From positions 1 to 19,624 of the forward strand of contig DKPS01000252.1 in the NCBI GenBank assembly GCA_002471345.1: 19,624 bases of DNA, read 5' to 3'. The notes under the pieces are model-generated. The model was not told the origin of the DNA, ran no database searches, and was given only the letters and a program-made list of their open reading frames with translations. Position 1 is the first letter of the stretch; each line of letters begins with the position of its first letter. A program made the translations under genes and the position numbers. Positions 1 to 18,046 of this stretch are shown piece by piece. This DNA comes from Saprospiraceae bacterium UBA7328. Its GTDB lineage: Bacteria; Bacteroidota; Bacteroidia; Chitinophagales; Saprospiraceae.

Positions 1-91
1 CTTAAGTAACGTAAGTCTTCAGGTATGCTAATCTTAATCATTCAAAAAAAAGTAATTATAAACTACTGATATTAGAAGATAGATAGGAAAA

Positions 92-132
92 GCTCTTATA
101 TCTTCACGGAAGATATGAGTGAGCCGTTTTTT
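92..132 (+). terminator. Rho-independent terminator-like hairpin upstream of the patatin gene
   Basis: A 14-bp stem can be drawn from 92-105 paired with 109-124, with loop ACG, one T-G wobble and a two-base bulge (119-120). It is followed by CG and six T (127-132). On the + strand this has the form of an intrinsic terminator. It lies only 28 bases before the patatin start codon, so it either ends a + strand gene lying left of the window or acts as an attenuator in the patatin leader. Frames entering from the left close at 7-9 or 29-31, which fits the first reading. The structure is seen directly; the role is inferred. Confidence 0.7.
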
Positions 133-159
133 CTTGAAGTTTCACAAAAAAAATAAATA

Positions 160-1626
160 ATGTTTTCAAGACGATTAAATAAAATCAAAAAGAAACTTAA
201 CAAAGCTGAAAGTTATGAAGAGTGGAAAACTTTCGCTTTAGAAATTGACGAGGCCACGGGAATGGAAGCATGGAAGCACGTAAATCATAGCAATTTATAT
301 GATAATGAGGAAATTTATCTTCGCTTAGAAACTCTCAGAAATTACAGAGAACAAGGAGATGATCAAGGACTGCTATTTACATTGAATGAAGGGATTCATG
401 GTAATATGGGCGGTATGGGAAATAGTAAACTTTATGAAAAAGCTCTTTTTGGAACGAAGCAATTAATAGAAGATTATTTAGATGAAGTCGGAGACTCTAT
501 TCTTCATATTGCCGACAAGAATAATGACAACATTAGTTTTGAAGACAAACTGGACTTTTTCCATAGAGCAAGCCAATGCTTTGGGAGGTCTGCATTAATG
601 TTAAGTGGTGGTGGCCAATTAGGAAATTTTCATGGAGGAGTGCTTAAAGTGATGGCTCAACATCATCTGATACCAGATGTCATATCTGGCTCAAGTGCGG
701 GTTCAATTTTTGCAGCCTTAGCAGGAACTCTTAATGATGAAGAATTATTAGGCTTTCTTGGAGAAGACTCTTTATTTCAATTACTTGAACAAGAGGAAAA
801 TATATTCAAAAACATTTCTGATGAAAGAAGCTCGCTTAGAGTTAGAGACCTTGAAAGTGTAGTCAACTCCACTATTCCTAACCTCACATTTCAAGAAGCT
901 TTCGAACATACAGGTAGAAAAATTAATATTTCTGTTTCGCCAAAAGGACTACAGCAAAAATCTAGATTACTGAATGCCATTGCATCTCCAAATGTGTTAA
1001 TACGGTCAGCACTTATGGCATCATGTGCTGTTCCAGGTGTCTTCCCACCAGCAACTTTATTTGCTAAAAACAAGGATGGAAAGGTCCAAGCCTATTTACC
1101 TTCCAGAAAGTGGGTAGATGGATCTGCTTCCAATGATCTTCCTGCAAAACGCCTGGCAAGATTATATGGTGTGAATCATTTCATTGTGAGCATGACCAAT
1201 CCATTGGTTCTACCTTTTACTAATTCTCCTTTGCACAAAAGTGAATTTCTCTCTCCGGCTGTAAGGTTTGGGTCAGCAGTTCTCAAAGAAACTTCACAGT
1301 TTAATTATACATTGGCAAAGCCATTCTTTAAGTATGTTCCAAAACTGGCAGTTATGGCAACCACCATCAATTCGGTTATTCAACAAGACTACCAGGGTGA
1401 TATAAATATCATCGCAGACTTTAGTTCAATTAGGCCAACCAGGCTACTGTCTACTTTGACAAGAGACGAACTTGCAGAATTAATAACAAAGGGAGAAAAA
1501 GCGACATGGCCAAAGGTAGAGGCAATAAGGATTTGTACGAAAGTCGGCAGGATTCTAGATAAAATTTTGGAAGACTATGAATCAGAAGAAATGCATTTGG
1601 CTAAACAAGTATTGACTGAAAATTAG
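160..1626 (+). CDS. Patatin-like phospholipase/triacylglycerol lipase with DUF3336 N-terminal domain
   Basis: The product is 488 residues. Residues ~15-115 match the DUF3336 pattern (YEEW, YDNE, a central HGNMGGMGN, LYEKALFGTK). The patatin domain follows from ~145, with the oxyanion-hole stretch SGGGQLG at 149-155, the nucleophile elbow GSSAG at 177-181 (Ser179) and the DG dyad at Asp320-Gly321. All parts of the Ser-Asp catalytic dyad are therefore present. DUF3336 plus patatin is the arrangement of yeast TGL3/4/5 and plant SDP1 lipases and of many bacterial homologues, so acyl-ester hydrolysis of membrane or storage lipid is the likely role; the substrate is not evident. No signal peptide is seen, so it is probably cytoplasmic or membrane-associated. 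The ATG follows an A-rich leader without a clear Shine-Dalgarno, as is common in Bacteroidota. It is monocistronic, bounded by hairpins on both sides. Confidence 0.93.
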   Translation: MFSRRLNKIKKKLNKAESYEEWKTFALEIDEATGMEAWKHVNHSNLYDNEEIYLRLETLRNYREQGDDQGLLFTLNEGIHGNMGGMGNSKLYEKALFGTKQLIEDYLDEVGDSILHIADKNNDNISFEDKLDFFHRASQCFGRSALMLSGGGQLGNFHGGVLKVMAQHHLIPDVISGSSAGSIFAALAGTLNDEELLGFLGEDSLFQLLEQEENIFKNISDERSSLRVRDLESVVNSTIPNLTFQEAFEHTGRKINISVSPKGLQQKSRLLNAIASPNVLIRSALMASCAVPGVFPPATLFAKNKDGKVQAYLPSRKWVDGSASNDLPAKRLARLYGVNHFIVSMTNPLVLPFTNSPLHKSEFLSPAVRFGSAVLKETSQFNYTLAKPFFKYVPKLAVMATTINSVIQQDYQGDINIIADFSSIRPTRLLSTLTRDELAELITKGEKATWPKVEAIRICTKVGRILDKILEDYESEEMHLAKQVLTEN

Positions 1627-1662
1627 CACCTGAATTTTTCAGTGCTTCTTTTTCCTTTTTTG
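1625..1662 (+). terminator. Terminator of the patatin gene
   Basis: The stem AGCACCTGAA (1625-1634) pairs with TTCAGTGCT (1638-1646) with one bulged C and a 3-base loop, followed by a T-rich tail to about 1662. The stem begins inside the patatin stop codon. Confidence 0.75.
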
Positions 1663-1994
1663 TTTCTTTTAATGCACCATTTCATAGTACTGAATAAGGA
1701 TTTCATGAAGTTCAAATAGTAACTTCACTAACTCCTTTCAAGATTGAATTGAAAAAGAAGTGACCATTCATTTAAATAATCTAATAGCCAAAATTAGAGT
1801 AGAGATGCCTTGGTTCGGATATCAAATCAAAAGATGATTTTGATCTTTTAAATGATTTGAATCATCCATTGAATAAGAGTTCAATACACATAATTTGAAC
1901 GAATTAAAAAGTCTTGAAAAGTTGTTCGAAATTAAATCAGTAGTGGATTAATCATCCTTGATTACTCTTATTTTGAGCACTGATAAATTGAAAA
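1663..1994. other. Non-coding gap before the sulfatase, holding a 14-bp bulged hairpin
   Basis: No credible gene is seen in this gap. It holds one notable inverted repeat: 1822-1828 pairs with 1854-1860 (7 bp) and 1829-1835 pairs with 1843-1849 (7 bp), separated by a four-base bulge at 1850-1853, with a 7-base loop. The hairpin has no following T-run, so it is not a standard terminator. It lies about 135 bases before the sulfatase ATG and could sit in that gene's promoter or leader. No match to the Bacteroidota -33/-7 promoter pattern could be picked with confidence. Confidence 0.4.
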
Positions 1995-3752
1995 ATGAAA
2001 AAACATAAATCATTAAGTTATTTGATAATCTCTATTTTTTTGCTTTTTGCAAAAAGTGCATTTTCCCAAACTGAGTCAACTCCTCCAAATTTCGTCCTTA
2101 TCCTTGTCGATGATGCTGCCCTTCAGGACTTTGGATGTTATGGAGGAGAAGCATCTACGCCTCACATAGATGCATTAGCCGGCAGAGGCATAATGTTCAC
2201 TAATCATCACGCCTCGCCAATGTGTGCTCCTTCCAGAGCAATGTTACTTACTGGTCACGATAGCCATCAGACAGGTGTTCCAAACCTTCCTATATTCACA
2301 CCCCCACAAATTGCCGCTTATGAAGGCTACGAAGGTATACTCAACAATAAAGTATTTACTATAGCTACAAGACTGAAAAATCATGGATACCACACTTACA
2401 CTTCAGGTAAGTGGCACTTAGGTCATACTCAAAATACTTTGCCTACTAAACGAGGATTCGATAGATCTTATATACTAGACGCTTCAGGGGCAGACAACTA
2501 TGAGCAACGCCCATATCTTCCTACTCAAGAAGCCAAACCTCCATGGTATAAAGATGGAAAAACTGTAGATCTACCAGAAGATTTTTACTCATCCCGCAAC
2601 TTAGTAGATGAGATGATCCAATTTATGAAGGAAACTCCCAAAGACGACAAACCCTTCTTCTCGTATTTAGCATTTCAAGCCATCCATATACCCGTACAGG
2701 CCCCCAGAGAAATCACAAAAAAATACATTTCTACATATGAAAAGGGCTGGGCTGCGATAAAGAAGAGGCGCTATGAGAACGCAAAAAAAATAGGCATTAT
2801 ATCACCTAGTGCGCCTCTAGGAGAAATGCTACCGACTTTGGAAAATTGGGAAGATCTGACTGAAGAAGACAAAAAATATAAAGCCAAAGCAATGGCTGTG
2901 AACGCTGCCATGCTAGAATCAATGGATACCCATATTGGACGATATATAACGTATCTCAAATCTGTAGGCAAGTATCAAAATACGATGTTTGTGATTACAT
3001 CAGACAATGGCCCAGAGGCCAGTGCAGTAGGTGATGTAGCCGCAATGAAAATATGGCTTAAAACTCAAGGATATCATCAAGATTATGAACGGCTAGGAGA
3101 ACAAGGTTCATTCAATTATATAGGCCCTGAATTTGCAAGTGCTGCTGCTGGGCCTAGTTCATATTTTAAATTTTACGCTGGAGAAGGTGGATTAAGGGTT
3201 CCATTAATTTTCTCAGGTCCACAGATTCCAAAAGGAGATACATTACATTCATTCACCTGGATAACAGATATAACACCTACTATTTTATCGTTGGCAGGAA
3301 TCGATATTCCTAAAATTGCTCCAGTGGGACCTATGACAGGAAAAAACCTCACCCCGCTACTTCGTAAAGAGGTCCAACAGGTCTATGAAACAGATGACAT
3401 TATCGGCATGGAAGCAGCCGGTCAATGTGCATTATACAAAGGAGATTTAAAACTAGTAAGAAATGGAAAACCATACGGTGATGGTATTTGGAGAATGTAC
3501 AACCTCAACAATGATCCTGGAGAAACTATTGATTTAAAAGAGTCAGAACCAAGTATTTTTGCCTCTATGATTAAGCATTATGATGATTACACTACCGAAA
3601 ATAATGTAGTAGAGATGGGAATAAATTACCAACCTCTTTTAGAAATCCAGAACAAGTATAGAGCAATGCTAGGGAAGACCATAAGACCCTGGTTTCTATT
3701 GATTTTTGGGTTAATATTTGGGTTTCTTTTTTGGAAGAAAATGAAATCATGA
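1995..3752 (+). CDS. Type I (formylglycine) sulfatase, secreted, with C-terminal membrane anchor
   Basis: The product is 585 residues. A signal peptide spans 1-25 (basic start, hydrophobic core, cut near AFS|Q). The sulfatase fold follows: metal ligands Asp39-Asp40, the signature C77-A-P-S-R81 whose Cys is converted to formylglycine in this family, GKWH at 138-141, His231, and Asp337-Asn338 for calcium. All key active-site residues are present. It resembles arylsulfatase-type (S1 family) enzymes that cleave sulfate esters from organic or polysaccharide substrates. The last ~25 residues form one hydrophobic helix (about 566-580, Phe/Leu/Ile-rich) followed by KKMKS, so the mature enzyme is probably held in a membrane with its catalytic domain outside the cytoplasm. 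No SusC/SusD pair, glycoside hydrolase or formylglycine-generating enzyme is adjacent, so the substrate is open. The ATG is the only start that gives a full signal peptide. Confidence 0.95.
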   Translation: MKKHKSLSYLIISIFLLFAKSAFSQTESTPPNFVLILVDDAALQDFGCYGGEASTPHIDALAGRGIMFTNHHASPMCAPSRAMLLTGHDSHQTGVPNLPIFTPPQIAAYEGYEGILNNKVFTIATRLKNHGYHTYTSGKWHLGHTQNTLPTKRGFDRSYILDASGADNYEQRPYLPTQEAKPPWYKDGKTVDLPEDFYSSRNLVDEMIQFMKETPKDDKPFFSYLAFQAIHIPVQAPREITKKYISTYEKGWAAIKKRRYENAKKIGIISPSAPLGEMLPTLENWEDLTEEDKKYKAKAMAVNAAMLESMDTHIGRYITYLKSVGKYQNTMFVITSDNGPEASAVGDVAAMKIWLKTQGYHQDYERLGEQGSFNYIGPEFASAAAGPSSYFKFYAGEGGLRVPLIFSGPQIPKGDTLHSFTWITDITPTILSLAGIDIPKIAPVGPMTGKNLTPLLRKEVQQVYETDDIIGMEAAGQCALYKGDLKLVRNGKPYGDGIWRMYNLNNDPGETIDLKESEPSIFASMIKHYDDYTTENNVVEMGINYQPLLEIQNKYRAMLGKTIRPWFLLIFGLIFGFLFWKKMKS

Positions 3753-4124
3753 CTTTTAAATGTCAATCATATTCAGGTATCTAAATCAAAAAAAATTAGG
3801 TCTTACTTGCAAGGTCTGATTGAGCAATTCATCTTGCTTAAATTGAAAAGGCAGACAATTTAATTGCCATCAAGAGATTACAAAGATGAGGGCCAAATGA
3901 ATTTATGCTTCAGAATATCCAACATTCTAATCTGTTTTTAACTTCCAAATATCTGGAAAGTAACATTTCAATTTAAAATTTAACAGAGCATAAAAAAGCT
4001 GTTATTCCACAAATGAGAAATGTTTATGAGATCTAGTGAGAGTCTCTTATATCTCTAGCAGCATCATTTGACTTTGTACCCTAAGAGTTTCCTCATTAAG
4101 AAATCAATGGTCGCAGAATGAATT
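3753..4124. other. Non-coding gap between convergent sulfatase and TonB receptor genes
   Basis: Nothing convincing is coded here: frames are short and broken. Small inverted repeats (TAACAG/CTGTTA near 3980-4010, GAGAGTCTC near 4040) are weak and lack T-runs. No good + strand terminator for the sulfatase was found before the shared hairpin at 4132-4163, which may serve both genes. Confidence 0.5.
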
Positions 4125-4163
4125 AAATAAAAAATCCCACTCCTCGTTTGAGGAGTGGGATTT
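4125..4163 (-). terminator. Perfect terminator of the TonB receptor-OmpA gene
   Basis: A perfect 14-bp stem (4132-4145 with 4150-4163, GC-rich core, 4-base loop) is followed on the minus strand by a T-rich run covering 4134 down to 4125. It lies 30 bases past the receptor stop codon. The + strand side has only three T, so it works best for the minus-strand gene, though it may also slow transcription coming from the sulfatase. Confidence 0.93.
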
Positions 4164-4193
4164 AAAATCTGAAAGATTTTATTCTTTAGAGTA

Positions 4194-7100
4194 TTATTTT
4201 AAAATGATAAATTCTACTCTTCTGTTCATTTTTCTACCTTTCGCTGTGTTATTATCAGCTATTGGATGATCTTCACCTAAGCCATTAGTAGAAAGTCTTG
4301 ATGTATCAATTCCTTTTGATACCAAGTATTCTTTCACTGCATCAGCTCTAGACTGAGACAATTTCATATTACTTTCAGCTTGTCCTTGGCTATCAGTATG
4401 ACCTTGTATTAATACACTGATATCGCCAAATTCCTCCATTATAGCAGCAGCTTCATCCATCTTAGCGAAAGACTCTTTTCTAAAAGTAGATCTTGATGAA
4501 TTGAACTGAAGTCCTTCTAAAGCAGCAGTAAATCTAGTTGTGATCTCTGTATTTCTTACTTTCAAAGCTTCAATCCTCATTGTTTCCGCTTTTTCAGCAG
4601 CTTCTGCTTCCATTCTTGCTTTTTCAGCAGCAGCGGCAGCAGCAGCTTCTGCATCTGCTCTTCTCTTTGCTTCTGCAGCAGCTCTTGCTTTAGCCTCAGC
4701 TTCTGCTTTTACTCTTGCCTCTTCTTCTGCTTTTACTCTTGCAGCTTCTGCAGCAGCTTTTGCTTCTGCAGCAGCTTTTGCAGCCATATCTTCAGCATTC
4801 ATAGGACATCCCTTATGCTTTCTGATACCAGCTATATCCGGACATGCATCTTTGTGATCTCTTATACCATCACCATCGCTATCCATTTTCTTAGCAGCCA
4901 TATCAGCAGATGATCGTGAACTAGCTCCATCATCACCAAATGTATAAGTCAATTTACCTAACACTCTTCTTCCAATTTTAGGAAAGCTAGGATATGTTCT
5001 ATACTCAGAATCAAATAAATTCTGTGCTGAAATATTTAATGCCAAACCACTGTCAAACTTATATCCAACACCTAAATCTACAAGGTTTTTCTCGTCAGTA
5101 TCTCCTGAAAATTGACCTAAAAACACCTCATAAGTAGGATCATGTTGGAATGCCATATTTGCTCTAAACCCAAACTCTGGAACATAATTGAATCCTAATC
5201 TGAACTTGTTAGTTGGTTGAGAAATAGAAGTTCTTTCTGTATCACCATCACTACCTACAATCGTTGGATTGAAGATGTTATCTGAAGTCCATGAGTAAGC
5301 AGCACTAAGTGTTAAATCGTTAGAAACGAAATAATTTAATCCTATGTCAGATCCCCAATAATCATAAGCCTCAAAAGTTCTATATCCTGCAGCTAAGTGA
5401 GTAACTCCATTATTAGGCACCTGCTCTGTAGGAGTAGTAGCTAATACAAATCCTGCATTAAGAGGTGCTATACTTTGTAAAAATCCAGCTCCACCAGCTG
5501 CATATCCGCCACCTACAATTCCTGCCACTTGAGCAACTGTCGCTTCAAAAGTAGCTTGATCAGGGAAACCTCCAGGTACACCTATAAATGGTGACAAGAG
5601 TCCAGAAAGGAAGGTTGCAAAGTCTGCTCCTACCGCATTACCTAATGCTGCTGGCAGACCATCTGTACCCTGAAGACTATAACCTGGGCTAATAGCAGTA
5701 AATAAAGTCGCTCCGTCCACTTTTCTATTATACACATCCACTGATACGCCTAACTTATCGCCTATCAATCCTTTGTATCCTACTTCCCACGTATCCTCTG
5801 TTCTTAAAGTAGCTGCAGGAGCATCTGTCAATCCTAGAGGACGACCGTTAAATAGGTTGATCCCAACAAATTGACCTGCAAGGCCGCCAACAAAGTTCGC
5901 CGGATTACCCAAGTAATCAGCTATTGGCCCAGCAAGAGGGGCAAATAGAGGATTAGCAGCAGTTAATCCTTGAATAATAGCTGGAATAACTGCAGAAGAT
6001 ACGGCTCCTTGTACATATGCCAAAGGTATACCCGGAGTACCTACAGGTAAGCTAGGGAATGGTACTGCTCCATTAAATACAATCTGTGGATTAGAACCAA
6101 ATGTCTGTGCATTTTTATTACCTATAAGGAAAACATCAAATGCACCTGGAACAACTGTACTTACAGGGAAATCGATATTAACCTGCAGCTGAGAAGGAGC
6201 TCCAACAGCTCTATTAAATCCACCTCTGAATGTATGCTTAGGGCTAGGCTTCCAAACCATTACTGCTCTTGGAGAAAATGAATTCTCTTCCAAGAAATTA
6301 AATCTATCAGCTCTACCAGCCAATACTAAATCTAACTTATCACCCAAGGCCAACTTAGTTTGTAAGTAAAGTCCTTGAATTCCAAAATTGTCATCATCTT
6401 CTTCTCTACCATAAACCTGATTCTTTGTATCTGCTTTTGACAATCGGTAATCAAAACCAGCTGTCCAATTCGCATTCAAGAATCCAGGAGTGTCAAAATT
6501 ATATTGCAACTGAGCTTCTAGTTGTGTTCTTCCTACAGTAGTAGTGTTTCCAGTTTGATATAAGAATGTTGGATTCTCATCTGTACCTCCGGGTGTATTT
6601 AACCAAAATGCCTGTGCAAAAAGGCCCCCTTTCTGAAGTCTTGCTTGTGCATATGTCTCTCTTGCTTGACTTAGACCGAATCCTTGACTATTGTAGAATA
6701 GGTGCGAAGCTTGATTCATACCACCTGTAAATATTATGGATAAATCATCCTGCGGCCTAAATTCTAAAGTACCATTCAAACGAGCTGAATTCCAGTCATT
6801 TTGAAGAGGGTTACCATCTCCATCAGGATCTAAGTCTGACGCTGTCTTTATCACTCTACCTGGTAAAGTACCATCTACTATACCACCTGTGATAGCAGGT
6901 ACAGAAACAGTAGATTGTAGTCTACCTAAACTTACTTGATCTATTGGATCATTCGGATCTAATCCAAACTCATTTCCTTTTTGATATGCTGCATTGATTT
7001 TAAAACCAAATTTGTCAGAAACCTTGGTAGCATGTCTTACTGCAGCACCGAAAGTACTTAGTTCTCCACCTGTTAATTCTATAGTGGTACCTGGTTTGTC

Positions 7101-7814
7101 TATTGCAGATTTAGAAAGAAAGTGAATTACACCCGCAGTCACACCAGGTCCATAAAGAGCTGAACCAGGACCTCTTACAACTTCAATTCTTTCAAGATCA
7201 ATACTACTAACAGGAGTATTCAGTGCATCATAAGTTCCTAATCCTGGACCGGATAAAGATCTATAATCCAAAATCGGAAATGATGCTGATCCAAATATCC
7301 CCCCATCACCTCTTAATTGAATATTAGTAACTGCAGCACCTTGTTGCTGAACAGTAATTCCAGGTTCATTGATTAAATTCCTGACTGGGTTATTATTCGG
7401 AGAAGCTTCAAGCTTTCTCGCTGTAATAACTGAAATAGAAGCCGGAGCCTCTTGAATCTTTTCACGTCTTCTTGATGCAGATATAACTACATCATCCCCT
7501 AACAAGACCCCTTCTTGTAAGGTCACATCTACATTAGAAGATGAACTAGCCACATCAACCTCTGTGGTATTATATCCAGTAAAAGAAATAACTAGTGTAA
7601 GTGGAAAAGATGCTGAGGTATTCACCTCATATGTACCATCAAAATTTGATATAGTACCATCCGTAGTCCCCTTCACTAAAACATTAGCCCCGATGAGTAC
7701 CTCACCTGAAGCGTCAGTTATTGTACCTGAGACAGAGTTTTGGGCCATCATCAAAGTACACATCAGCATTCCAAAAAGGAATGCAGATGATCTGAGTAAA
7801 ACAGTTTTTTTCAT
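4194..7814 (-). CDS. TonB-dependent outer-membrane receptor fused to a C-terminal OmpA peptidoglycan-binding domain
   Basis: The product is 1206 residues. In order: signal peptide 1-25; carboxypeptidase-D-like regulatory domain ~27-101; possible TonB box near DDVVISASRR (107-116); plug ~118-238 with the usual closing RIEVVRGPGSALYGPG; beta-barrel ~240-959 ending LTYTF. After the barrel, where most receptors stop, come a DSDGDG calcium-type repeat (978-989) with CP at 991-992 and 1003-1004, an Ala/Glu/Lys/Arg-rich coiled coil (~1010-1088), and an OmpA/MotB domain to the end. The OmpA domain keeps Asp1141 and Arg1156, spaced 15 apart as are the diaminopimelate-binding pair of E. coli OmpA. It would import a ligand across the outer membrane with TonB energy while holding peptidoglycan from the periplasmic side. 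Long Gly/Ala/Pro-rich apolar inserts sit in the barrel (~580-650 and ~705-790). No SusD partner follows. The ligand is unknown. The reading frame is continuous through the fusion. Confidence 0.95.
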   Translation of the reverse strand: MKKTVLLRSSAFLFGMLMCTLMMAQNSVSGTITDASGEVLIGANVLVKGTTDGTISNFDGTYEVNTSASFPLTLVISFTGYNTTEVDVASSSSNVDVTLQEGVLLGDDVVISASRRREKIQEAPASISVITARKLEASPNNNPVRNLINEPGITVQQQGAAVTNIQLRGDGGIFGSASFPILDYRSLSGPGLGTYDALNTPVSSIDLERIEVVRGPGSALYGPGVTAGVIHFLSKSAIDKPGTTIELTGGELSTFGAAVRHATKVSDKFGFKINAAYQKGNEFGLDPNDPIDQVSLGRLQSTVSVPAITGGIVDGTLPGRVIKTASDLDPDGDGNPLQNDWNSARLNGTLEFRPQDDLSIIFTGGMNQASHLFYNSQGFGLSQARETYAQARLQKGGLFAQAFWLNTPGGTDENPTFLYQTGNTTTVGRTQLEAQLQYNFDTPGFLNANWTAGFDYRLSKADTKNQVYGREEDDDNFGIQGLYLQTKLALGDKLDLVLAGRADRFNFLEENSFSPRAVMVWKPSPKHTFRGGFNRAVGAPSQLQVNIDFPVSTVVPGAFDVFLIGNKNAQTFGSNPQIVFNGAVPFPSLPVGTPGIPLAYVQGAVSSAVIPAIIQGLTAANPLFAPLAGPIADYLGNPANFVGGLAGQFVGINLFNGRPLGLTDAPAATLRTEDTWEVGYKGLIGDKLGVSVDVYNRKVDGATLFTAISPGYSLQGTDGLPAALGNAVGADFATFLSGLLSPFIGVPGGFPDQATFEATVAQVAGIVGGGYAAGGAGFLQSIAPLNAGFVLATTPTEQVPNNGVTHLAAGYRTFEAYDYWGSDIGLNYFVSNDLTLSAAYSWTSDNIFNPTIVGSDGDTERTSISQPTNKFRLGFNYVPEFGFRANMAFQHDPTYEVFLGQFSGDTDEKNLVDLGVGYKFDSGLALNISAQNLFDSEYRTYPSFPKIGRRVLGKLTYTFGDDGASSRSSADMAAKKMDSDGDGIRDHKDACPDIAGIRKHKGCPMNAEDMAAKAAAEAKAAAEAARVKAEEEARVKAEAEAKARAAAEAKRRADAEAAAAAAAEKARMEAEAAEKAETMRIEALKVRNTEITTRFTAALEGLQFNSSRSTFRKESFAKMDEAAAIMEEFGDISVLIQGHTDSQGQAESNMKLSQSRADAVKEYLVSKGIDTSRLSTNGLGEDHPIADNNTAKGRKMNRRVEFIILK
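4551..4787 (-). repeat. Internal DNA repeats encoding the Ala-rich coiled-coil linker
   Basis: The stretch encoding residues ~1010-1088 of the receptor-OmpA protein is built of near-identical in-frame units. An exact 18-base unit is repeated back to back at 4744-4761 and 4762-4779. Another 18-base unit occurs at 4701-4718 and again at 4725-4742 (24-base period). All units are multiples of three, so gain or loss would lengthen or shorten the helix without breaking the frame. Confidence 0.85.
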
Positions 7815-7896
7815 AAGCTTTCTTTGTTAATTAAACTTTAAAATATCCTCATAATTAGTAAAAAAAGCGCATTTACCGAAATGAACAATATTTTCA

Positions 7897-7909
7897 ACCT
7901 TGACAAGGT
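7897..7909. promoter_or_regulatory. 13-base palindrome upstream of the TonB receptor gene
   Basis: ACCTTG-A-CAAGGT is an exact inverted repeat with a single central base, about 83 bases before the receptor start codon. Overlapping it, GGTA and TACC (7907-7919) flank an A-run. Its size and place suit a dimeric regulator's operator, but no regulator gene is nearby and no promoter elements could be fixed, so this is only a candidate. Confidence 0.3.
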
Positions 7910-8007
7910 AAAAAATACCAATAAGATTCCTCATATATTATTTCTGATTTATGAACAAACTATCTTAGTTATATACTATGTAGTAACGAATAGACCCGAA
8001 AAAGAAG

Positions 8008-9135
8008 TTAATTGAGAGATTTAAGCTTTTCCTTTGCAAATGCTAACTCTTCAGGAGTGTTCGCATTGTACAATGAAAGATCATGAGGTGGTTCAATTTC
8101 TTTGATATCAGAATTAATCAAAACTTTTCTGGGACAACTATAGCCCATACTCAAGAAATGAAGTAAAGAAGGATAAGCTCGAGGTTCCCATATTGTGATA
8201 AGTGGTTCTGGAAATCCTGTTTCCTTATTGTGAAAACAGGTAGCCATTTTAGAAGGGTCTCTTTCCGATATCAATAATTCTATTAATGGTGCATCAATAA
8301 AAGGAACATCACAGGGTAGTGTGAAATAAGCTGAATTAGGATTAGCCCTGAATGCGGATAATATTCCACCAAATGGCCCTAGATCTGTGAAAGTATCCGT
8401 AATCACATCATCACTTTTAATGCCATCGCTTAATTGTGATTTTGAAACGTAAGTTTTATCACAGTATTTCTTCATCAGATCAGAGAGATAATCCACTTGA
8501 GAACTTCCATGATAGTTTATTCTTCCTTTATCTGACCCCATTCTTGTGCTCTTTCCACCATATAGGAGTAGCCCAAACAAAGAGGGGTTGCTAGCCTTAA
8601 CAAAATCTATGATAAGCTCAATAATAGAATCAATATTCTCAATTGAGAGAATTGGTACCTCTTCATAATTGGCTACTGATTCCTTGAGGAAGTCAAAAGG
8701 AACATTCATCCCTTCATCAAGAATAAAAGCCTTGACATTAGTCAATTTATCTAATTTTCTAGAAAGGGATTCTCTCTTTTTCTCGTTTATGATTACGATT
8801 TGTTGATCTGATTTGAAGTGATTAGCATTAATCAACAGACCAGAACATGTTTCGAATTTTTGTTTAAGGCTATAATCGGTATGACTGTCTTCAAAATTGA
8901 CTTGATGAAAATTGATTTTATCCGTGTAAACCATATGGTAGTTCAAAGATGAATCGCCACTACCATGATCGGCATCCATGTATCCAATATTATAGCCGCC
9001 TTTTAGTCCTAATACTATCTTATCACAAAGGATTTGAATAGTACTACATGGAGCTCCAATAAACCCGAACTCATTGCGATGAAAGTTACCACCATTTGGT
9101 TTTTTTAGAAAGACATGTTTGTTGTGCTTCTTCAA
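8008..9135 (-). CDS. MobA-like molybdenum cofactor nucleotidyltransferase with MobB-like N-terminal domain
   Basis: The product is 375 residues. The C-terminal half (~185-375) is a MobA-type NTP transferase: the signature YGGKSTRMGSDKG at 192-204 matches the family GGxSxRMGxDK, with Lys203 in place, and LPCDVP at 273-278 supplies the metal-binding Asp. This family links GMP (or CMP) to molybdopterin to complete the molybdenum cofactor in the cytoplasm. The N-terminal half (~22-180) looks like MobB, the P-loop partner of MobA, but at the P-loop it reads GAPCSTIQ (27-34) and lacks the Walker A lysine. From memory, such two-part proteins occur in other Bacteroidota and begin with a similar KHxKH segment. 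That supports the rare TTG start used here; an in-frame TAA lies five codons upstream and the next Met is residue 53. No other cofactor gene is in the window. The 193-base gap to the receptor gene suggests separate transcripts. Confidence 0.85.
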   Translation of the reverse strand: MKKHNKHVFLKKPNGGNFHRNEFGFIGAPCSTIQILCDKIVLGLKGGYNIGYMDADHGSGDSSLNYHMVYTDKINFHQVNFEDSHTDYSLKQKFETCSGLLINANHFKSDQQIVIINEKKRESLSRKLDKLTNVKAFILDEGMNVPFDFLKESVANYEEVPILSIENIDSIIELIIDFVKASNPSLFGLLLYGGKSTRMGSDKGRINYHGSSQVDYLSDLMKKYCDKTYVSKSQLSDGIKSDDVITDTFTDLGPFGGILSAFRANPNSAYFTLPCDVPFIDAPLIELLISERDPSKMATCFHNKETGFPEPLITIWEPRAYPSLLHFLSMGYSCPRKVLINSDIKEIEPPHDLSLYNANTPEELAFAKEKLKSLN

Positions 9136-9313
9136 AAAGATAAATTGTTAATTACAAAAAATGAGAACTAAGGGACTGCAATTTACTTATAGCTCTAGTT
9201 AAAGACAATTAATCAGTTATTGAATTGAAATATTCTCGATCAGACCAAACGCAACCAATGACCTAGATTTACAGTAAGTATTTATATAACTTAGTATTGA
9301 AAATCAATCGATT

Positions 9314-9320
9314 AAGAGGA
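9314..9320 (+). promoter_or_regulatory. Ribosome binding site that fixes the start of the DM13 protein
   Basis: AAGAGGA lies three bases before ATG 9324, giving a purine-rich Shine-Dalgarno-like site. The longer in-frame TTG at 9297 has no such site and would put nine polar residues ahead of a clean signal peptide. Confidence 0.55.
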
Positions 9321-9323
9321 AAT

Positions 9324-11018
9324 ATGAGAATTCTAATCCATCAAATATTTACGACCATTTTTCTGTTGTGTTCTATATTCTTTGTCGCTTCTGCACAGAC
9401 TGTTGTGGAAACAAGAGAAGCAGAGTTAATGGACGGAAATTATGTCATTTCAGGTAAAGCATTTTTAGATCTTTTGGATAATGGTGACATTGTTCTAAGG
9501 CTCGATGAAGACTACGATACACCTAGAGGCCCAGATGTTCAGATTTTCTTATCTACAGATCCTCAAAATCATACAGGAGCTTTTTTTGTAGAAGACATTG
9601 CTGAGACTGGAAAATTCAGTGGGGCACAGCAATGGGAACTTGGCACTCAAGTTGGGTTTAATGAATATGACTATATTATATTTCGATGTGTCCAATTTGG
9701 ATTACACTGGGCAGGTGGCACATTCGGTGCAGCAAGTGATGGAGGAGGAAACGGTGGTGGTGGGAATGAACCTATGGACACTTGTGTAAGAACAATTGCT
9801 GCTGGTGTAAATTGGGCTACTGAAATTGGTATTTGTCCTACTGATGGAATAGATGATATCATTCCACTAAGAAATACTGAAGGAATTCCTGCTGGAGATA
9901 GTTACGCTTATGTATTAACAAGTGAATTTGGAAGTATCATTACACTTCATTATGAAGACATGTACAATTTTGAAGGATCTGGCACTTCTCCTACAAGAGT
10001 ATATGGAATCTCATATTCGGGTAATCTAACATATGATGTTGGTGATTTATGGACTTCCATTCAGTCAGATGGATGTATAGAATTTTCTGATAATAATGTT
10101 TTCCTCACAGTTAATAAGGACAGCTGTTCTGCAGAACCCGAGTGTTTTGAGACCAATGTAGCTTCTACGGCATGGGTGACTGACATCTCAATATGTCCTT
10201 CTGATGGTTTAAGCGACTCTGTTCAACTTCAAAATAACCTATTAATTCCTGCAGGTGACACTTATGCCTATGTGTTCACTGATGAAAATAGAAGGATAAA
10301 ATTTATTCATTTGGAGGATTGGTATGATTTTGAAAATTCTGGCTCACAGACTGATTACGTCTATGGTGTTTCCTATGAAGGAACACTTTCATACAATGTA
10401 GGTGATCCATTAAGTAGTATTACAGCTGATGGATGTGCTACTGTTTCTAGTAGTGAATTGTTTATTGCGGTTTCAAAAAATTCCTGCCAGCCTGAAGTGG
10501 GCAGTATAAGTGGTAAAGTGACTAATTTTAATGGGAACGGCGTATCTGGTGTTTCTATTACCCTTAATACTGGGGCAGTCGCTATGACTAATCTTGATGG
10601 TGTATATACTTTCAATGATCTTCCTCTTAATGCTCCTTACACCCTTACTCCTACCAAATCTGACATTTTTGGAAATGGTGTTTCTGCACAAGACTTAGTA
10701 ATTATGTCAAGACATATTTTAGGCATCCAACCATTCTCAAATCCATTTCAACTTATTGCAGCTGATGCCAATAAAGACAATAGAGTTTCTGCTTTGGATA
10801 TCATTAATTATGTGAACATCATTATTGGCAAATCTGATGAACTAAGCAACAATACTAGTTGGAGATTTGTACCAGGATCTAAGTCTTTTGGTGACAATGA
10901 GGATCCTTTTGACTTTGTAGAGAAAGACGCTATTCAAGACTTAACAGAGGATGTTGTAGACTTGAATTTCACTGCAGTTAAAACAGGTGATACTAGTGGA
11001 AATGCCAATGTGAACTAA
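9324..11018 (+). CDS. Secreted DM13-domain protein with duplicated four-cysteine module and dockerin-like C-terminus
   Basis: The product is 564 residues. A signal peptide covers 1-24 (cut near ASA|Q). A DM13 domain lies at ~30-137, with the GPDVQIFLS strand at 69-77 and a lone Cys122; DM13 in eukaryotes is proposed to take part in redox or electron transfer through such a cysteine. A Gly-rich linker (139-148) leads to two copies of a ~115-residue module, with cysteines 154/171/251/268 and 274/291/371/388, each pair exactly 120 residues apart. Then come a carboxypeptidase-like beta domain (~395-446) and a dockerin-like part (~447-503) with one good EF-hand-type loop, D481 to D492, and one degenerate loop near 447-457. 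The end, GDTSGNANVN, resembles sequence after dockerin-like segments in Bacteroidota secreted proteins. No type IX sorting domain follows. The role is unknown; surface or extracellular adhesion or redox is conceivable. It is first in a + strand run. Confidence 0.85.
   Translation: MRILIHQIFTTIFLLCSIFFVASAQTVVETREAELMDGNYVISGKAFLDLLDNGDIVLRLDEDYDTPRGPDVQIFLSTDPQNHTGAFFVEDIAETGKFSGAQQWELGTQVGFNEYDYIIFRCVQFGLHWAGGTFGAASDGGGNGGGGNEPMDTCVRTIAAGVNWATEIGICPTDGIDDIIPLRNTEGIPAGDSYAYVLTSEFGSIITLHYEDMYNFEGSGTSPTRVYGISYSGNLTYDVGDLWTSIQSDGCIEFSDNNVFLTVNKDSCSAEPECFETNVASTAWVTDISICPSDGLSDSVQLQNNLLIPAGDTYAYVFTDENRRIKFIHLEDWYDFENSGSQTDYVYGVSYEGTLSYNVGDPLSSITADGCATVSSSELFIAVSKNSCQPEVGSISGKVTNFNGNGVSGVSITLNTGAVAMTNLDGVYTFNDLPLNAPYTLTPTKSDIFGNGVSAQDLVIMSRHILGIQPFSNPFQLIAADANKDNRVSALDIINYVNIIIGKSDELSNNTSWRFVPGSKSFGDNEDPFDFVEKDAIQDLTEDVVDLNFTAVKTGDTSGNANVN
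9783..10487 (+). repeat. Tandem duplication of a 120-residue four-cysteine module
   Basis: The two copies span 9783-10127 and 10143-10487. They share the pattern W-x-T-[ED]-I-x-ICP-[TS]-DG, IPAGD-x-YAYV-x-T, a VYG-[IV]-SY box, VGD and DGC, with all four cysteines in register at a 360-base offset. The copies have diverged strongly at DNA level, so this is an old duplication. Two intramodule disulfides are likely but inferred. Confidence 0.85.
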
Positions 11019-11076
11019 TTTGTGAGATACTAATGTTTTACTCTTCTCGTTTTAAAATCCACAACAAAAAGTCAGC

Positions 11077-11499
11077 ATGAAATTCATCTCCATTATTCTA
11101 TTTGGACTAATCTTCTCAAATGTCTCTGCTCAAGAATCCGTTTTTGGAATTTGGAAAGCAATTGATGATAAAGACGGAGAGCCATCATCTTATATCGAAA
11201 TCTACAAAAAAGAAGGAAGAGCATATGGCAAAATCACCAAACTCTTTGACCAAACAGATGATATCCTTTGTGAAAAATGCCCAGGTGACAAAAAAAACAC
11301 ACCAGTTTTAGGCTTAGAAATGTTATGGGACATGAAACAAAAAGGTAAAGAGTGGAACGGTGGAAGAATTCTTGATCCTGAAGACGGAAACACTTATAAA
11401 TGTGTCATAGGCTTAAACAAAGATGGCACTCTTAAAGTAAGAGGCTATATAGGTATTAGAGCTCTGGGTAGAACACAAACTTGGCATAGAGTAAGTTAG
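11077..11499 (+). CDS. DUF2147 family secreted protein
   Basis: The product is 140 residues. A signal peptide covers 1-19 (cut near VSA|Q). The remainder follows the DUF2147 pattern throughout: GIWKAIDDKDGEPSS near the start, GKITKLF at 51-57, a C65-EK-C68 pair, WNGGRILDPEDG at 93-104, Cys109, VRGYIG at 121-126 and a closing GRTQTWHRV. The length is usual for the family. DUF2147 proteins are small exported beta-rich proteins of unproven function. The gene starts 58 bases after the DM13 gene with no terminator between, so the two may share a transcript. The CxxC pair and Cys109 suggest a disulfide or metal site, which is inferred. Confidence 0.9.
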   Translation: MKFISIILFGLIFSNVSAQESVFGIWKAIDDKDGEPSSYIEIYKKEGRAYGKITKLFDQTDDILCEKCPGDKKNTPVLGLEMLWDMKQKGKEWNGGRILDPEDGNTYKCVIGLNKDGTLKVRGYIGIRALGRTQTWHRVS

Positions 11500-11604
11500 A
11501 AGAGAATAACTTATTATCTCATTAAGAATGATTTAATAGTTCTTTAAGGCTTAAGGCAGTCGATAACATATACCTTAACCATATACTTCAAAACGTCAGT
11601 CAAT

Positions 11605-14076
11605 ATGAAAATTCTCTACGCCTTAATTGGATCTCTATTTCCTATTCTACTTAGTGCACAGATCAATGGCTCAATTACTGATCAAAGTGGAGAGCCACTT
11701 CCATTTGTGAGTATTTACATCAAAGGATCTACACAGGGCACTACATCCAACATTGAGGGAGTTTATAGGCTTAATCTCTCTCCCGGCAATTATCAAATTG
11801 TATATCAATACGTAGGAAAAGAAACTGTAACAAAGCACGTAGATTTAGGAAGCAACTCAATAAATATTGACATTGTACTTCAAGCCCAAGCTACTTTGCT
11901 AAATGAAGTAACCATAGCTGCTGATGCTGAAGATCCAGCTTATGCCATTATCAGAAATGCTCAACGTAAAAGGAAATATTATCAAAACCTGATAGAGCAA
12001 TTTACGTGTGATGTATATGTCAAAGGGAATCAAAAGATAGAGGATGCACCAGAAAAAATTATGGGGATAAAGGTAGGAGACATGGACGGAGCCCTAGATT
12101 CTAATCGTCAAGGCATAGTATATCTGTCCGAATCTATTTCTAAACTTTACTACAAAGGAGAAGGGAATCTCAAAGAAGTCGTATATAGTTCAAAAGTAAG
12201 TGGAGATGATAGCGGGTATAGTTTTAATACTGCAAGAGAGATGGAATTCAATGTCTATGACAACACCATGGATTTCAGTAGAGAACTGGTCTCACCCATT
12301 GCAGAAAATGCTATGGCATACTACAAATACCGTCTAGAAGGGACATTCTATGAAGATGGCAGGCTCATCAATAAGATTAAGCTCCTCAGAAAACGAGAAA
12401 CTGATCCGTCATTTTATGGTACAATTTACATAGTAGAGGATTTGTGGAATATCCACAGTGTAGAAGTTGGAGTTACATCTAAGGCATCACAGCTTTATTT
12501 TCTAGATAGTGTGGAGGTAGACCAGGTTTTTGTGCCGCTTCAGGAACCAGACGTTTGGCGTATATTCTCCAATAACATTTCTTTTAAATTAGGAATCCTT
12601 GGTTTCAAGTTAAATGGAAATTTCTCTGCAACCTACTCTAATTACGACCTTACATCTCCGATAGATGATAACATTTTCAATAAAGAGGTTTTCGTAGTAG
12701 AGAAAGATTCTAATAAGAAGGATAGTCTATACTGGGAGGCAAACCGCCCAGCTCCACTTACACAAGAAGAAAAAGTGGACTATGTAAAAAAAGACAGTAT
12801 CCAAAAGGTAAGAGAAAGCCCAGCTTTTAAAGATTCTTTAGACAGAGAAAATAATAGATTTGAAATTGGAGATGTTCTTGGTGGCTACAGTCATTCTAAT
12901 TCATCAAATCATACCTATTGGAGTATAGGATCCGCTCTGAGTCATGTCGGATTCAATACTGTGCAAGGTTACAATGCATCACTCGACCTTAGTTGGTGGA
13001 AATATTTTGATAAAGAGCATACCAACAGAATCATCCTTGATGGGAATATTAACTATGGATTTTCAGAAAAGAAAGTCCGAGGAAACGGAAGTATAACATA
13101 CAGACCCAATAGGCTAAATAGGTCTTATGTTACTTTAACAGGAGGGACTTCTGTCAAGCAATTTAATAAGTTTGAACCTATAGATGAATTGAGGAACACG
13201 CTATACAGTCTTTTTGCTCGAAGAAACTATCCTAAATATTTTGACTATTCCTATGCTAAGATAGGTTTTGGGAAAGAAATTTTTAACGGAGTGAACGTCA
13301 GAGCTATGATGGGATATGAACAACGTAGTCAACTTTTTAACAATTCTGATCAAAGTTATTTTTATAAAGATAGTCGTGTATTTACACCTAACTTCCCTTC
13401 TGAAATAATAGATAATGATTTAGTAAATGAGTTCGAAAATCATAAGGTATTCTCAGCAGAGCTTTATGCAGATTTTAGATTTAACCAAGAGTATTTTGTT
13501 TATCCTGACAGAAAATTTGATTCTGGAAATAATGGAGCCACTTTAAGATTTAAATACAGATTCCTCAATGGAATAAAGAATGGTATTTCACTTAATGCAT
13601 TGAGCGCTTCTTTAACTAATGAGATTTCATTAGGTTCTAGAGGAAGTTTTACCTATTTTTTAAAAGGAGGAAGTACTCTACAAAAAAATGAGTTAACACC
13701 TCTTGACTATTTCCATTTTCAAGGAAACCAATTTACACTCTCAGACCCTGCATCTTATCCAACTTCTTTTTTAGCGCTACCCTATTATTCTCACAGTACT
13801 GATGGCAATTTTGTTCAAGCTCATGTGCAACACCACTTTGATGGATTTGTTATGGATAAAATTCCAGGAATAAACAAGTTGGGTTTTGGACTGGTGGCAG
13901 GGGCTAAATATCTCAATGCTCAAGGATCAGACTCTTACTATGAAGTTCATCTAGGTATTGATAAAATAGGATGGCATATTTTTAGAATATTGAGGCTTGA
14001 TTTAGTAAGATCTTCAATGGGTAGTAATTCAGATTGGAGTTATAGAGTAGGCGTTAAAATCCGAAGTTCTGATTGA
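11605..14076 (+). CDS. CarboxypepD-regulatory-like/DUF5686 outer-membrane protein
   Basis: The product is 823 residues. A signal peptide covers 1-18 (LLSA|Q). Residues ~20-95 form a carboxypeptidase-D-like regulatory domain (NGSITDQSGEPLPFVSIYIKG start, NIEGVYRL). From ~108 the DUF5686 part begins with the typical DPAYAIIRNAQRKR and YVKG motifs and runs to the end as alternating aromatic/polar strands with Asn/Gly turns, consistent with an outer-membrane barrel. It lacks a TonB plug, so it is not a classic TonB receptor. DUF5686 proteins are widespread in Bacteroidota and of unknown role. It lies 105 bases after the DUF2147 gene. The 3' end faces the hydrolase at 14091 with only 14 bases between. 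Confidence 0.9.
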   Translation: MKILYALIGSLFPILLSAQINGSITDQSGEPLPFVSIYIKGSTQGTTSNIEGVYRLNLSPGNYQIVYQYVGKETVTKHVDLGSNSINIDIVLQAQATLLNEVTIAADAEDPAYAIIRNAQRKRKYYQNLIEQFTCDVYVKGNQKIEDAPEKIMGIKVGDMDGALDSNRQGIVYLSESISKLYYKGEGNLKEVVYSSKVSGDDSGYSFNTAREMEFNVYDNTMDFSRELVSPIAENAMAYYKYRLEGTFYEDGRLINKIKLLRKRETDPSFYGTIYIVEDLWNIHSVEVGVTSKASQLYFLDSVEVDQVFVPLQEPDVWRIFSNNISFKLGILGFKLNGNFSATYSNYDLTSPIDDNIFNKEVFVVEKDSNKKDSLYWEANRPAPLTQEEKVDYVKKDSIQKVRESPAFKDSLDRENNRFEIGDVLGGYSHSNSSNHTYWSIGSALSHVGFNTVQGYNASLDLSWWKYFDKEHTNRIILDGNINYGFSEKKVRGNGSITYRPNRLNRSYVTLTGGTSVKQFNKFEPIDELRNTLYSLFARRNYPKYFDYSYAKIGFGKEIFNGVNVRAMMGYEQRSQLFNNSDQSYFYKDSRVFTPNFPSEIIDNDLVNEFENHKVFSAELYADFRFNQEYFVYPDRKFDSGNNGATLRFKYRFLNGIKNGISLNALSASLTNEISLGSRGSFTYFLKGGSTLQKNELTPLDYFHFQGNQFTLSDPASYPTSFLALPYYSHSTDGNFVQAHVQHHFDGFVMDKIPGINKLGFGLVAGAKYLNAQGSDSYYEVHLGIDKIGWHIFRILRLDLVRSSMGSNSDWSYRVGVKIRSSD

Positions 14077-14090
14077 AAGTCCCATTAGTT

Positions 14091-14939
14091 TCAAGAGTTT
14101 AAAATCCCTAGTGACCACTCCCATAATTTTCGACCTTTCTTCTTGTTGAAAAAACCTGAATGGCCTATTCTAGATAATGACAGAGATTTCGGATCAATCT
14201 GGTGATGACTGATAGGAGCATTTTTATAGTGTCCCATCATGAATTTTAATGCTTTGCTTGTAGCTATGGGATCATCAGAAAATGAAATCCAATCTATCTT
14301 TTGAGTAATCTTTTCATAGAGGTCTTTTTCAAATCTGGATTTAACAAACCCTCTAAAATATAATGGATGTCTAGAAAACATTGCCCAATCCTTTGCTACA
14401 CCTTTGGATATCGCCACACCTCTATAAGTTAGACCTTTAGGTAATTGTCCGAAAAGAGTGGACACAATAGGGATATGAACGTAGAACATGAAAAAAGTGA
14501 AAAGATTAAGAGGGAATTCAAATAGACGATAATGGCCACCAGTAGAACAAAAGAAAAGAAACCTTTCTATGGATTCGATACTAGGAACAAGTCCAGCTAT
14601 TTGACCAGCCACACTGTGTCCTACATAATAGATTTTTTCTGAAGGGAACTCACGAAGGATATAGTTAATACAAGCTGGAATGTCCTGAAGTGGCCAATTG
14701 GTCAGATTAATTTTGGAAGTCTTTTCTCTCAGATCATCTTTTCCTATTCCTCGATAATCAAATACTAAAACCCGATAATCAGATGACCTAAGAAATTCAC
14801 AATAATTAAGGTAGAACTCCTTTGGAATACCCAATCCCGGACAAAATAAAATAACACCTTTAGACCGATTTTGTGGAGAGAAGAGCAGTGCAGAAATCTG
14901 AACACCATCTTCAGCAAGTACTTTAACCTTCTTGTGCAT
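14091..14939 (-). CDS. Alpha/beta hydrolase (COG4757-like)
   Basis: The product is 282 residues and has no signal peptide. It has PGLGIPKEFY (34-43), the VFDYRGIGK strand-turn (59-67), nucleophile elbow GHSVAG at 107-112 (Ser109), an acid at Asp222 or Asp223 in FSDDPIAT, and His260 in IGHSGFF. The KDWAMFSRHPLY box (183-194) is like that of predicted hydrolases grouped as COG4757. Those usually read GHSxGGQ; here the first G of the GG pair is Ala. A cytoplasmic esterase or lipase-type reaction is likely, with unknown substrate. It follows the hydrolase at 14952 by only 12 bases and is thus translated from the same transcript, last of the minus-strand run that begins with the sigma factor. The stop is TGA. 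Confidence 0.88.
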   Translation of the reverse strand: MHKKVKVLAEDGVQISALLFSPQNRSKGVILFCPGLGIPKEFYLNYCEFLRSSDYRVLVFDYRGIGKDDLREKTSKINLTNWPLQDIPACINYILREFPSEKIYYVGHSVAGQIAGLVPSIESIERFLFFCSTGGHYRLFEFPLNLFTFFMFYVHIPIVSTLFGQLPKGLTYRGVAISKGVAKDWAMFSRHPLYFRGFVKSRFEKDLYEKITQKIDWISFSDDPIATSKALKFMMGHYKNAPISHHQIDPKSLSLSRIGHSGFFNKKKGRKLWEWSLGILNS

Positions 14940-14951
14940 TTGTAAGATTCA

Positions 14952-15758
14952 TTATAATTGACTTAGCATTATATGAGCCAGTTCTTTTGGCTTTTCCATG
15001 GGAATGAGGTGACCTACATTCGTCATATTAATAAATGTAGAATTAGGCGTATTCCTTTTAATCTTTTCCCAGATTTCACTACTTATTACATTACTATTAT
15101 CTCCTCTTATTATGATCAATGGGCAAGGTGGTCTTTTCAAAATAGACCATACATCAATCACAGAACTGTATATTTTCCCTTCCCACTTTTTTGGAAAAGC
15201 AAGAGTGAATTTTCCATTCTTTTCTTTCAGACCACCTTCTATAAAATCTTCAAATGCTTCGGGATGAAATTTTTGAATGAATCTTTTACTTTCAAAATAT
15301 GCTCGTGCCTCTTCTTTAGTATCCCAACTATCTTTTCTTCTTAAAGCAATTTTCACCATTGGCATCATTCTCTTCTTAATAAAATAAGGAAACTGAGTGA
15401 ATTTGTAAGCCTTTTGAGGAATAATAACTGGGTCTATTAGAATTAATTTTTTGAACAATTCTGGACGTTTATTTGCAGCTATTAATGAATAAATAGCGCC
15501 CATTGAATGTCCAACTCCGATGACATTGGACAATTGCTGTTCTTCAAAACAATGGATTAGATCTTGACCAAACTCTTCCCAATCATTAAAATTTTGTGAT
15601 TTACTTTCCTCCCAGAGAGGCCTTGCATGCATGCCACATACAGCATATTTCTCAGTGAAAGGCCTTAAAAATGACCGATAGCATGACAAAGGATATGCAT
15701 TAGCATGAGCAAAATGTAGCGCTTCTCCTTTTTGACTAATCTGGGTAAAAGGTATCAT
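14952..15758 (-). CDS. Alpha/beta hydrolase, esterase-like
   Basis: The product is 268 residues, without signal peptide. It has the oxyanion-side motif HFAHANAYP (15-23), nucleophile elbow GHSMGA at 83-88 (Ser85), the acid in IIIRGDNSN (Asp220) and His250 in NVGHLIPMEKP, giving a full Ser-Asp-His triad. The fold resembles small cytoplasmic hydrolases of the Abhydrolase_1/6 group (esterases, thioesterases, C-C hydrolases); the substrate cannot be read from sequence. It is only distantly like its downstream neighbour, so the pair is not a recent duplication. It starts 42 bases after the FecR-like gene and probably belongs to the same transcript. Confidence 0.9.
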   Translation of the reverse strand: MIPFTQISQKGEALHFAHANAYPLSCYRSFLRPFTEKYAVCGMHARPLWEESKSQNFNDWEEFGQDLIHCFEEQQLSNVIGVGHSMGAIYSLIAANKRPELFKKLILIDPVIIPQKAYKFTQFPYFIKKRMMPMVKIALRRKDSWDTKEEARAYFESKRFIQKFHPEAFEDFIEGGLKEKNGKFTLAFPKKWEGKIYSSVIDVWSILKRPPCPLIIIRGDNSNVISSEIWEKIKRNTPNSTFINMTNVGHLIPMEKPKELAHIMLSQL

Positions 15759-15800
15759 ACTGGATTTGATGTTGATAGGTGATGTTATATTGAAATGAGC

Positions 15801-16994: not shown

Positions 16995-17088
16995 TGTCTC
17001 AATCTTTAGACGATTTGTATCATTCTTCCCACATTATTGGTGGACATTGATAAATCTACATCTCTGTGCTTTTATTGCATTTTTTGAA

Positions 17089-17589: not shown

Positions 17590-17982
17590 CTAGAAATTGT
17601 CCTATATGGATTTACCCCGTGAATATAGCAAAGATGCAGGATTGTTCAGAACTTCTTAACAATAGATGAGTCTTTGTTATGAAGTGATTTAAAAACTTAC
17701 CTCATCGACTGCTGATAACACATTGATCCTTAATTTTTTATCAAAATTATTCAGCCAAACGCTCATAAAACATAGGTTGTCAAGACATAAATTTGGCCAT
17801 GCATTTCAAATTTTGCATTTGCTTTGGAACTAGGCCGTTACCTCCAACAGACGATGTGGTTAATAGATGACTTCTATATAATGACTTCATAAGGAAGTTT
17901 AAAAGGTCTAATTTAATCTTTTGATTATAGCGATTGCTTTAAATCAATTGATAAAACTTCACTCATACGTCATTCATCTCTC
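17590..17982. other. Non-coding gap between groL and the sigma operon
   Basis: No gene is supported on either strand. It must hold the promoter of the minus-strand sigma/FecR/hydrolase run. A TAATTTTG box (17749 down to 17742, minus strand) fits the Bacteroidota -7 consensus TAnnTTTG, but no TTG was found at the right distance upstream. AAATTTG and CAAATTT (around 17789-17813) form a 7-bp stem with an 11-base loop containing ATGCAT. No tRNA-like fold was seen. Confidence 0.4.
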
Positions 17983-18022: not shown

Positions 18023-18046
18023 ATATTCATTATAAGCTGGATGATA

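Follow-up and report, generated by a model that had tools for sequence, protein, structure and literature searches.

In the OmpA/OprF-type porins of Proteobacteria, an outer-membrane barrel is followed by a linker and an OmpA domain with an Asp and an Arg 15 residues apart. The same order was found in a protein encoded by a 19,624-nt stretch of DNA from Saprospiraceae bacterium UBA7328 (GCA_002471345.1, contig DKPS01000252.1, positions 1 to 19,624; hereafter the window), in which a TonB-dependent receptor is fused to a C-terminal OmpA domain. Unlike this fusion and its relatives, in which the barrel is of the TonB-receptor type and the linker is a long helix or a TSP3 array, the porins have an eight-stranded barrel without plug, CarboxypepD domain or TonB coupling. 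The Bacteroidota TonB-dependent receptors, including those of family PF25183, share with the fusions the N-terminal extension, the plug, the barrel and the closing-strand motif, but they usually end at the last strand whereas the fusions bear a tail. Another kind of channel protein with a wall-binding domain was met in P0189 to P0192, TolC-type proteins that carry PF05036 (presumably SPOR) and OmpA in one chain; those of Billgrantia (P0189) and Halomonas (P0191) resemble the fusion in joining a channel protein to an OmpA domain, but they have no TonB parts.

Two other systems share part of this design. OmpM of Veillonella, a porin of Terrabacteria with an N-terminal SLH wall domain, unites tethering and nutrient uptake in a single chain (PMC10628300), a double role that the fusion would presumably share. 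PorE, a lipoprotein of the type IX secretion system, combines OmpA-type wall binding with a CarboxypepD-like domain in Bacteroidota; unlike the fusion, it has neither barrel nor plug (PMC12204202). No TonB receptor carrying an OmpA domain was described in the titles and abstract beginnings listed by searches of the open-access literature, a scope outside which most subscription papers fall, and OmpA is absent from the available main text of a TonB review (PMC11658791). As detailed below, the fused architecture and its binding pair are conserved, the tail is spread as a module over several receptor families, and its linkers follow two designs, each of narrow length.

Architecture, linkers and binding pair

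The gene is an open frame of 1206 codons with zero internal stops (Table 1). An earlier interpretation made from the letters alone (the sequence-only reading) had described such an uninterrupted frame; it lies on the minus strand, the plus strand being dense in stop codons across the same positions. In the Pfam search, five families scored over their cut-offs, including CarbopepD_reg_2, Plug, the TonB barrel and OmpA (PF00691, residues 1104-1198, 73.3 bits against a cut-off of 27.2). The order of signal peptide, CarboxypepD domain, plug, barrel, DSDGDG repeat and OmpA domain in the sequence-only reading was recovered, with the repeat read as TSP3-like, while the coiled coil that it placed in the tail was not, no heptad period being present. 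The octapeptide DDVVISAS directly ahead of the plug resembles a TonB box when judged by eye. The barrel closing-strand motif finishes at residue 959, where the strand ends ...GRRVLGKLTYTF.

A plug followed by a TonB-type barrel, found by Pfam, in the model and by matches in the PDB, identifies the protein as a TonB-dependent receptor. Its PDB fold matches were TonB receptors in 50 of 50 cases among the matches listed, while by sequence the closest solved relative was the OmpA family protein 5wtl (expectation value E 5.1e-36, residues 1102-1206). Assignment to the SusC/RagA class was not borne out (TIGR04056, 92.7 bits, below the curated cut-off of 368.25), nor was identity with the OmpA/OprF porins, since the barrel is of TonB-receptor type and not the small OmpA type. 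In the AlphaFold2 model, the OmpA fold was placed after the last barrel strand. Mature-chain residues 1091-1182 had an OmpA-like order of elements, with a predicted local distance difference test score (pLDDT) of 72-89, and residues 983-1075 formed one unbroken helix (pLDDT 47-77).

The fusion was also found in relatives, which were searched for by shared sequence words and of which the best 120 of 844 are counted here. PF00691 and receptor domains occurred in one chain in 50 of them (Pfam), and P0019 was a 51st by its end motif. The fused relatives that aligned over 99-100% of the query, among the matches listed, were 44% to 67% identical with the same domain order, in agreement with the one-chain architecture claimed before. 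The closest of these, P0001, was 67% identical over 100% of the query and lies on a contig of 7,047,083 bases. Tail-less relatives with a parsable end stopped 0-7 residues past the last strand, as expected of TonB receptors, except P0005 (63 residues) and the partial P0117 (16 residues). Among 37 loci from named genomes, 12 encode the fused protein (11 from Saprospiraceae and one from Bacteroidetes; one, L048, is cut by a contig end), and L056 is a 13th candidate whose contig ends inside the helix linker.

Some chains with unusual ends were noticed in passing, not by a systematic count. P0005 (73% identical) ends shortly past the TSP3 repeat and P0019 lacks the OmpA part bearing the Asp/Arg pair; both may reflect tail decay or assembly error. 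P0029 has VSYTHLTLPTKA where the usual last residues would stand, presumably a sequencing-adapter artefact. P0172 (980 residues) joins OmpA to PF03030, which we take to be an H+-pyrophosphatase; this combination was unexpected and could be a join.

Two linker designs were found among the 68 tails parsed (nine further tails were left unparsed): 34 had a segment of more than 40 residues, and the other 34 had TSP3 repeats. The helix linkers, defined by a fraction of Ala, Glu, Lys, Arg, Gln and Met above 0.7 (which excluded P0058 of 160 residues and L112 of 108 residues), had a median length of 99 residues (n = 32, standard deviation 5.4, range 81-104). TSP3-type linkers had 8 repeats in 29 of 34 cases and 9 in the remaining 5 by motif count. 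As in single alpha helices, 18 of the helix linkers nearly lacked Pro and Gly and were rich in opposite charges at i,i+4, with 152 Glu to Lys/Arg pairs against 74 in shuffles (2.1 times) and 183 Lys/Arg to Glu pairs against 73 (2.5 times). In the same 18 linkers, the power of Val, Ile, Leu, Met and Phe was not raised at period 3.5 (0.83 against 0.94 shuffled) or at period 7 (0.74 against 0.88), and a coiled coil was rejected as the linker for want of these hydrophobic periods; at period 4 it was raised (1.94 against 0.90). Because of the charge excess and the missing heptad period, the helix linker is more likely a single salt-bridged helix than a coiled coil. An alpha helix rises 1.5 Angstrom per residue, and the modelled helix of 93 residues would be about 14 nm long. 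In a model of the TSP3-array tail, most of the repeat region scored under 50 in pLDDT, too low to set the physical lengths of the two linker types side by side.

Asp1141 and Arg1156, put forward in the sequence-only reading as a peptidoglycan-binding pair with canonical spacing, are 15 residues apart and each was kept in 79 of the 80 fused tail rows, some of which are identical sequences; the exception was one gapped row. With PF00691 over its cut-off, this pair identifies the domain as OmpA-type. The same spacing separates D262 and R277 of Escherichia coli OmpA, whose wall-binding domain retains part of its function after transfer to OmpX but not with D262A/R277A (PMC11648852). Peptidoglycan binding by the tail is well supported by sequence, as a prediction.

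Distribution and history of the tail

The window's own receptor family is called class A here; the others are the PF25183 receptors, presumably Oar-like, a third plug family and a fourth family. A search with residues 1096-1206 gave 50 proteins, 17 of which were receptor fusions by Pfam and barrel comparison, namely two of class A (P0001 and P0080), 13 with PF25183 and two of the third plug family (P0122 and P0134). The OmpA part of these tails was 63-77% identical to that of the window (63-73% on the two other families), and OmpA identity averaged 68.9% across the 153 pairings among 18 tails of three receptor classes. When one representative per class was compared by BLAST, no alignment at E 0.01 was found among classes A, B and C; A, C or B2 aligned with the fourth family over 152-196 residues near the plug (28-32% identity), and the representatives of two PF25183 subfamilies were 45% identical to each other.

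For 398 genomes belonging to the window's taxonomic family, a subset of a larger group, the matches listed include 27 long open frames (1167-1379 residues) with this kind of tail, spread over 21 genomes. Class A accounted for 18 of them, PF25183 for 7 and the fourth family, whose members L118 and L126 bear a TSP3-type tail, for 2; the start of L109 is cut by a contig end. One genome, G236, yielded 20 OmpA-domain matches at E 1e-15, four of which were fusions belonging to three families. An order-level survey of 396 genomes gave 12 matches at E <= 1e-44; every one fell in the window's taxonomic family, six of them in fused frames. The class-level survey (395 genomes), whose search model was built from Saprospiraceae-type fused tails so that fusions with other tails are possible elsewhere, gave no frame above 1000 residues but the window's own among the matches listed. 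This pattern marks the tail as a module and points to a swappable wall anchor, since receptors of several mutually unrelated families carry it within a set of related bacteria.

An anchored class A receptor occurred exactly once in each of 18 genomes selected for possessing one (matches at E 1e-60). Unanchored class A paralogues, one to four per genome, were present in 13 of the 18, with 19 in total; two frames in this set, of 831 residues (G290:C97) and 778 residues (G318:C80), may be cut short. Anchored and free copies adjoin in L047, L048, L049, L052 and L120.

In a barrel-only FastTree tree of 137 rows (rows under 900 residues excluded; P0005 and P0105, with uncertain ends, set as tail-less), anchored and unanchored class A receptors were interleaved and the OmpA state changed 21 times, with starred branches forcing 16 of these changes. 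A maximum-likelihood barrel tree of 42 rows, with sister pairs chosen on purpose (a choice that leaves its shuffle figures without meaning), needed 17 changes (16 without P0005) and rejected a single clade of fused rows. The tail tree, tested on 81 of 124 rows and 111 columns after removal of 34 stand-alone and 9 repeated rows, rejected one clade for the class A coil tails (approximately unbiased test, p-AU 0.0025) and one for all class A tails (p-AU 0.0037); these groups were chosen after the 124-row tree had been seen. In that tree, the window tail forms a pair with that of P0080, and the pair lies in a group of 22 tails, 3 of class A, 17 of PF25183 and 2 of the third family (fork 99/94). 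On these trees, barrel and tail have different histories, and a single fusion inherited along with the barrel was rejected by barrel and tail trees alike. For L049 and L052, whose anchored and free tandem members are not mutual nearest barrels in the 137-row tree, recent conversion between the two copies was unsupported.

Features and neighbourhood of the gene

Table 1. Position and basis of each feature of the fused receptor gene in the window
Feature	Positions	Strand	Basis
TonB-dependent receptor with C-terminal OmpA anchor, whole gene, 1206 residues	4194..7814	-	open frame, Pfam, full-length relatives
Putative signal peptide, residues 1-24	7743..7814	-	judged by eye from the sequence
CarboxypepD_reg-like N-terminal extension, residues 28-111	7482..7733	-	Pfam CarbopepD_reg_2
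Plug domain, residues 120-229	7128..7457	-	Pfam Plug
TonB-dependent beta barrel, residues 230-959	4938..7127	-	Pfam (best stretch 331-566), end motif, model, PDB matches
Single TSP3-like repeat, residues 978-1004	4803..4883	-	sequence
Ala/Glu/Lys/Arg helix linker, residues 1005-1094 (90 residues)	4533..4802	-	composition; modelled helix 1007-1099
OmpA peptidoglycan-binding domain, residues 1095-1206	4197..4532	-	Pfam 1104-1198
Asp1141 codon, predicted peptidoglycan-binding pair	4392..4394	-	tail alignment
Arg1156 codon, predicted peptidoglycan-binding pair	4347..4349	-	tail alignment
Terminator-like hairpin of 14 pairs, located about 30 bases past the stop codon	4132..4163	-	consensus match only

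Pfam did not report TSP_3 on the window protein; the family does match relatives. The hairpin is weak evidence of a terminator, as the scan gave 5 such sites against 2.5 (standard deviation 1.5) in shuffles. Rfam gave zero matches in the window at the gathering score. No conserved operon or substrate was found in the window or in the frame lists of the few loci fetched. In L110, L111 and L112, the next open frame on the same strand (532-538 codons, stop to stop) starts about 27-45 bases past a PF25183-type fusion, and it is a possible conserved partner of these fusions. Elsewhere in the window, a FecR-type anti-sigma factor and an extracytoplasmic function sigma factor form a pair on the minus strand (15801-17589) with no TonB receptor directly adjoining, followed on the same strand by two alpha/beta hydrolases. 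The plus strand (9297-11018) encodes a secreted-looking protein that matches dockerin type I (26.4, cut-off 22.9) and has a CarboxypepD_reg score just below its cut-off (31.4 against 32.3 bits).

Possible roles of the anchored receptor

The reading that we moderately favour is that of an outer-membrane TonB-dependent importer braced on peptidoglycan by a portable Saprospiraceae tail, which would keep the receptor at a defined height over the wall. Past the last barrel strand the C-terminus would enter the periplasm; a TSP3 knob followed by a straight alpha helix of defined length would carry the chain to the wall, and the OmpA domain would grip peptidoglycan at the chain end. The tail would be a cassette mounted on, swapped among and lost from several receptor families. 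By fixing the receptor at a set height it would keep the outer membrane at that distance, while the wall would bear the inward pull of TonB. In vivo peptidoglycan binding, linker rigidity and mechanical purpose are what we infer from the architecture. The strongest form of the proposal, in which an interchangeable, length-set strut moves among unrelated TonB receptors, takes up the TonB reaction force and holds the gap between membrane and wall, as a mechanical part of import and not a mere tether, is put forward tentatively.

Several points weigh against the braced importer. Wall binding is a prediction from sequence; the helix has a pLDDT of just 47-77, and the model does not fix the placement of the tail relative to the barrel. 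With a 4-residue Ala/hydrophobic period present, the helices may self-associate, and the linkers are related by descent, so that their narrow lengths and their surplus of salt bridges stand for fewer events than there are rows. Work in E. coli found no detectable gain in envelope stiffness from the OmpX-OmpA chimera and a loss of OmpA function in an Lpp-OmpA chimera (PMC11648852); on these results, giving a wall domain a new anchor is not enough in itself to brace the envelope. The window genome has 16 other OmpA-domain hits among its 17, so that bulk tethering does not depend on the fusion, and, going by position, a single one of its 39 plug hits carries the anchor. Sister barrels occur without the tail, and transport by this class therefore cannot in general need the anchor; the earlier suggestion that gating senses the distance to the wall found no support and, for the same reason, cannot be a general need of the class. 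Finally, E. coli OmpA is immobile irrespective of its wall-binding domain (PMC3637615), which weakens the earlier suggestion that the anchor could limit diffusion of the receptor.

The best surviving alternative, although unlikely, is a general envelope tether, in which OmpA tails were added to any available barrel, the receptor part serves as no more than a membrane plug and uptake is unaffected. Tails on at least four receptor families agree with it, and so does OmpM, which in diderm Firmicutes is a tether and a channel for uptake at once (PMC10628300). Bacteroidetes are moreover reported to have no identifiable tol-pal loci, and PorE has been proposed as one tether with others expected (PMC12204202). 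The 16 other OmpA-domain hits argue against it, and one anchored copy in each of the 18 selected genomes against 19 unanchored ones would be odd for a general tether. Positioning near the Ton motor appears rather improbable. Receptor and ExbD would both sit on the wall, making contact with TonB likelier for a scarce substrate. ExbD, the motor partner, does bind peptidoglycan (PMC10771500; PMC11658791) and the single anchored copy stands alongside free paralogues, but no conserved neighbour or substrate was seen in the few loci examined, and the immobility of E. coli OmpA lacking its wall domain tells against it as well. Neutral accretion, in which OmpA tails join receptors by recombination and are tolerated, is very improbable: it would fit the frequent gain and loss in the barrel tree, but not the near-complete conservation of the binding pair, the two linker designs of narrow length or the high mean OmpA identity across receptor classes. 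An artefact in which assembly (the case that the sequence-only reading had named as refuting it) or annotation merged two genes can practically be dismissed, for although the draft assembly of the window genome consists of 288 contigs, full-length relatives share the same domain order, one of them on a 7.05-Mb contig, and the 27 long frames with such tails come from 21 of the 398 family genomes.

For the braced importer, two questions of envelope biology are of interest. It is an open question how Bacteroidota that lack a recognised Tol-Pal system keep their outer membrane attached to the wall (PMC12204202), and the transfer of energy from the Ton motor to the receptor has been termed enigmatic (PMC10771500). 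Because related receptors occur naturally both anchored and unanchored, and because the linkers keep within a narrow range of lengths, outer-membrane tethering and Ton energy transfer both become testable.

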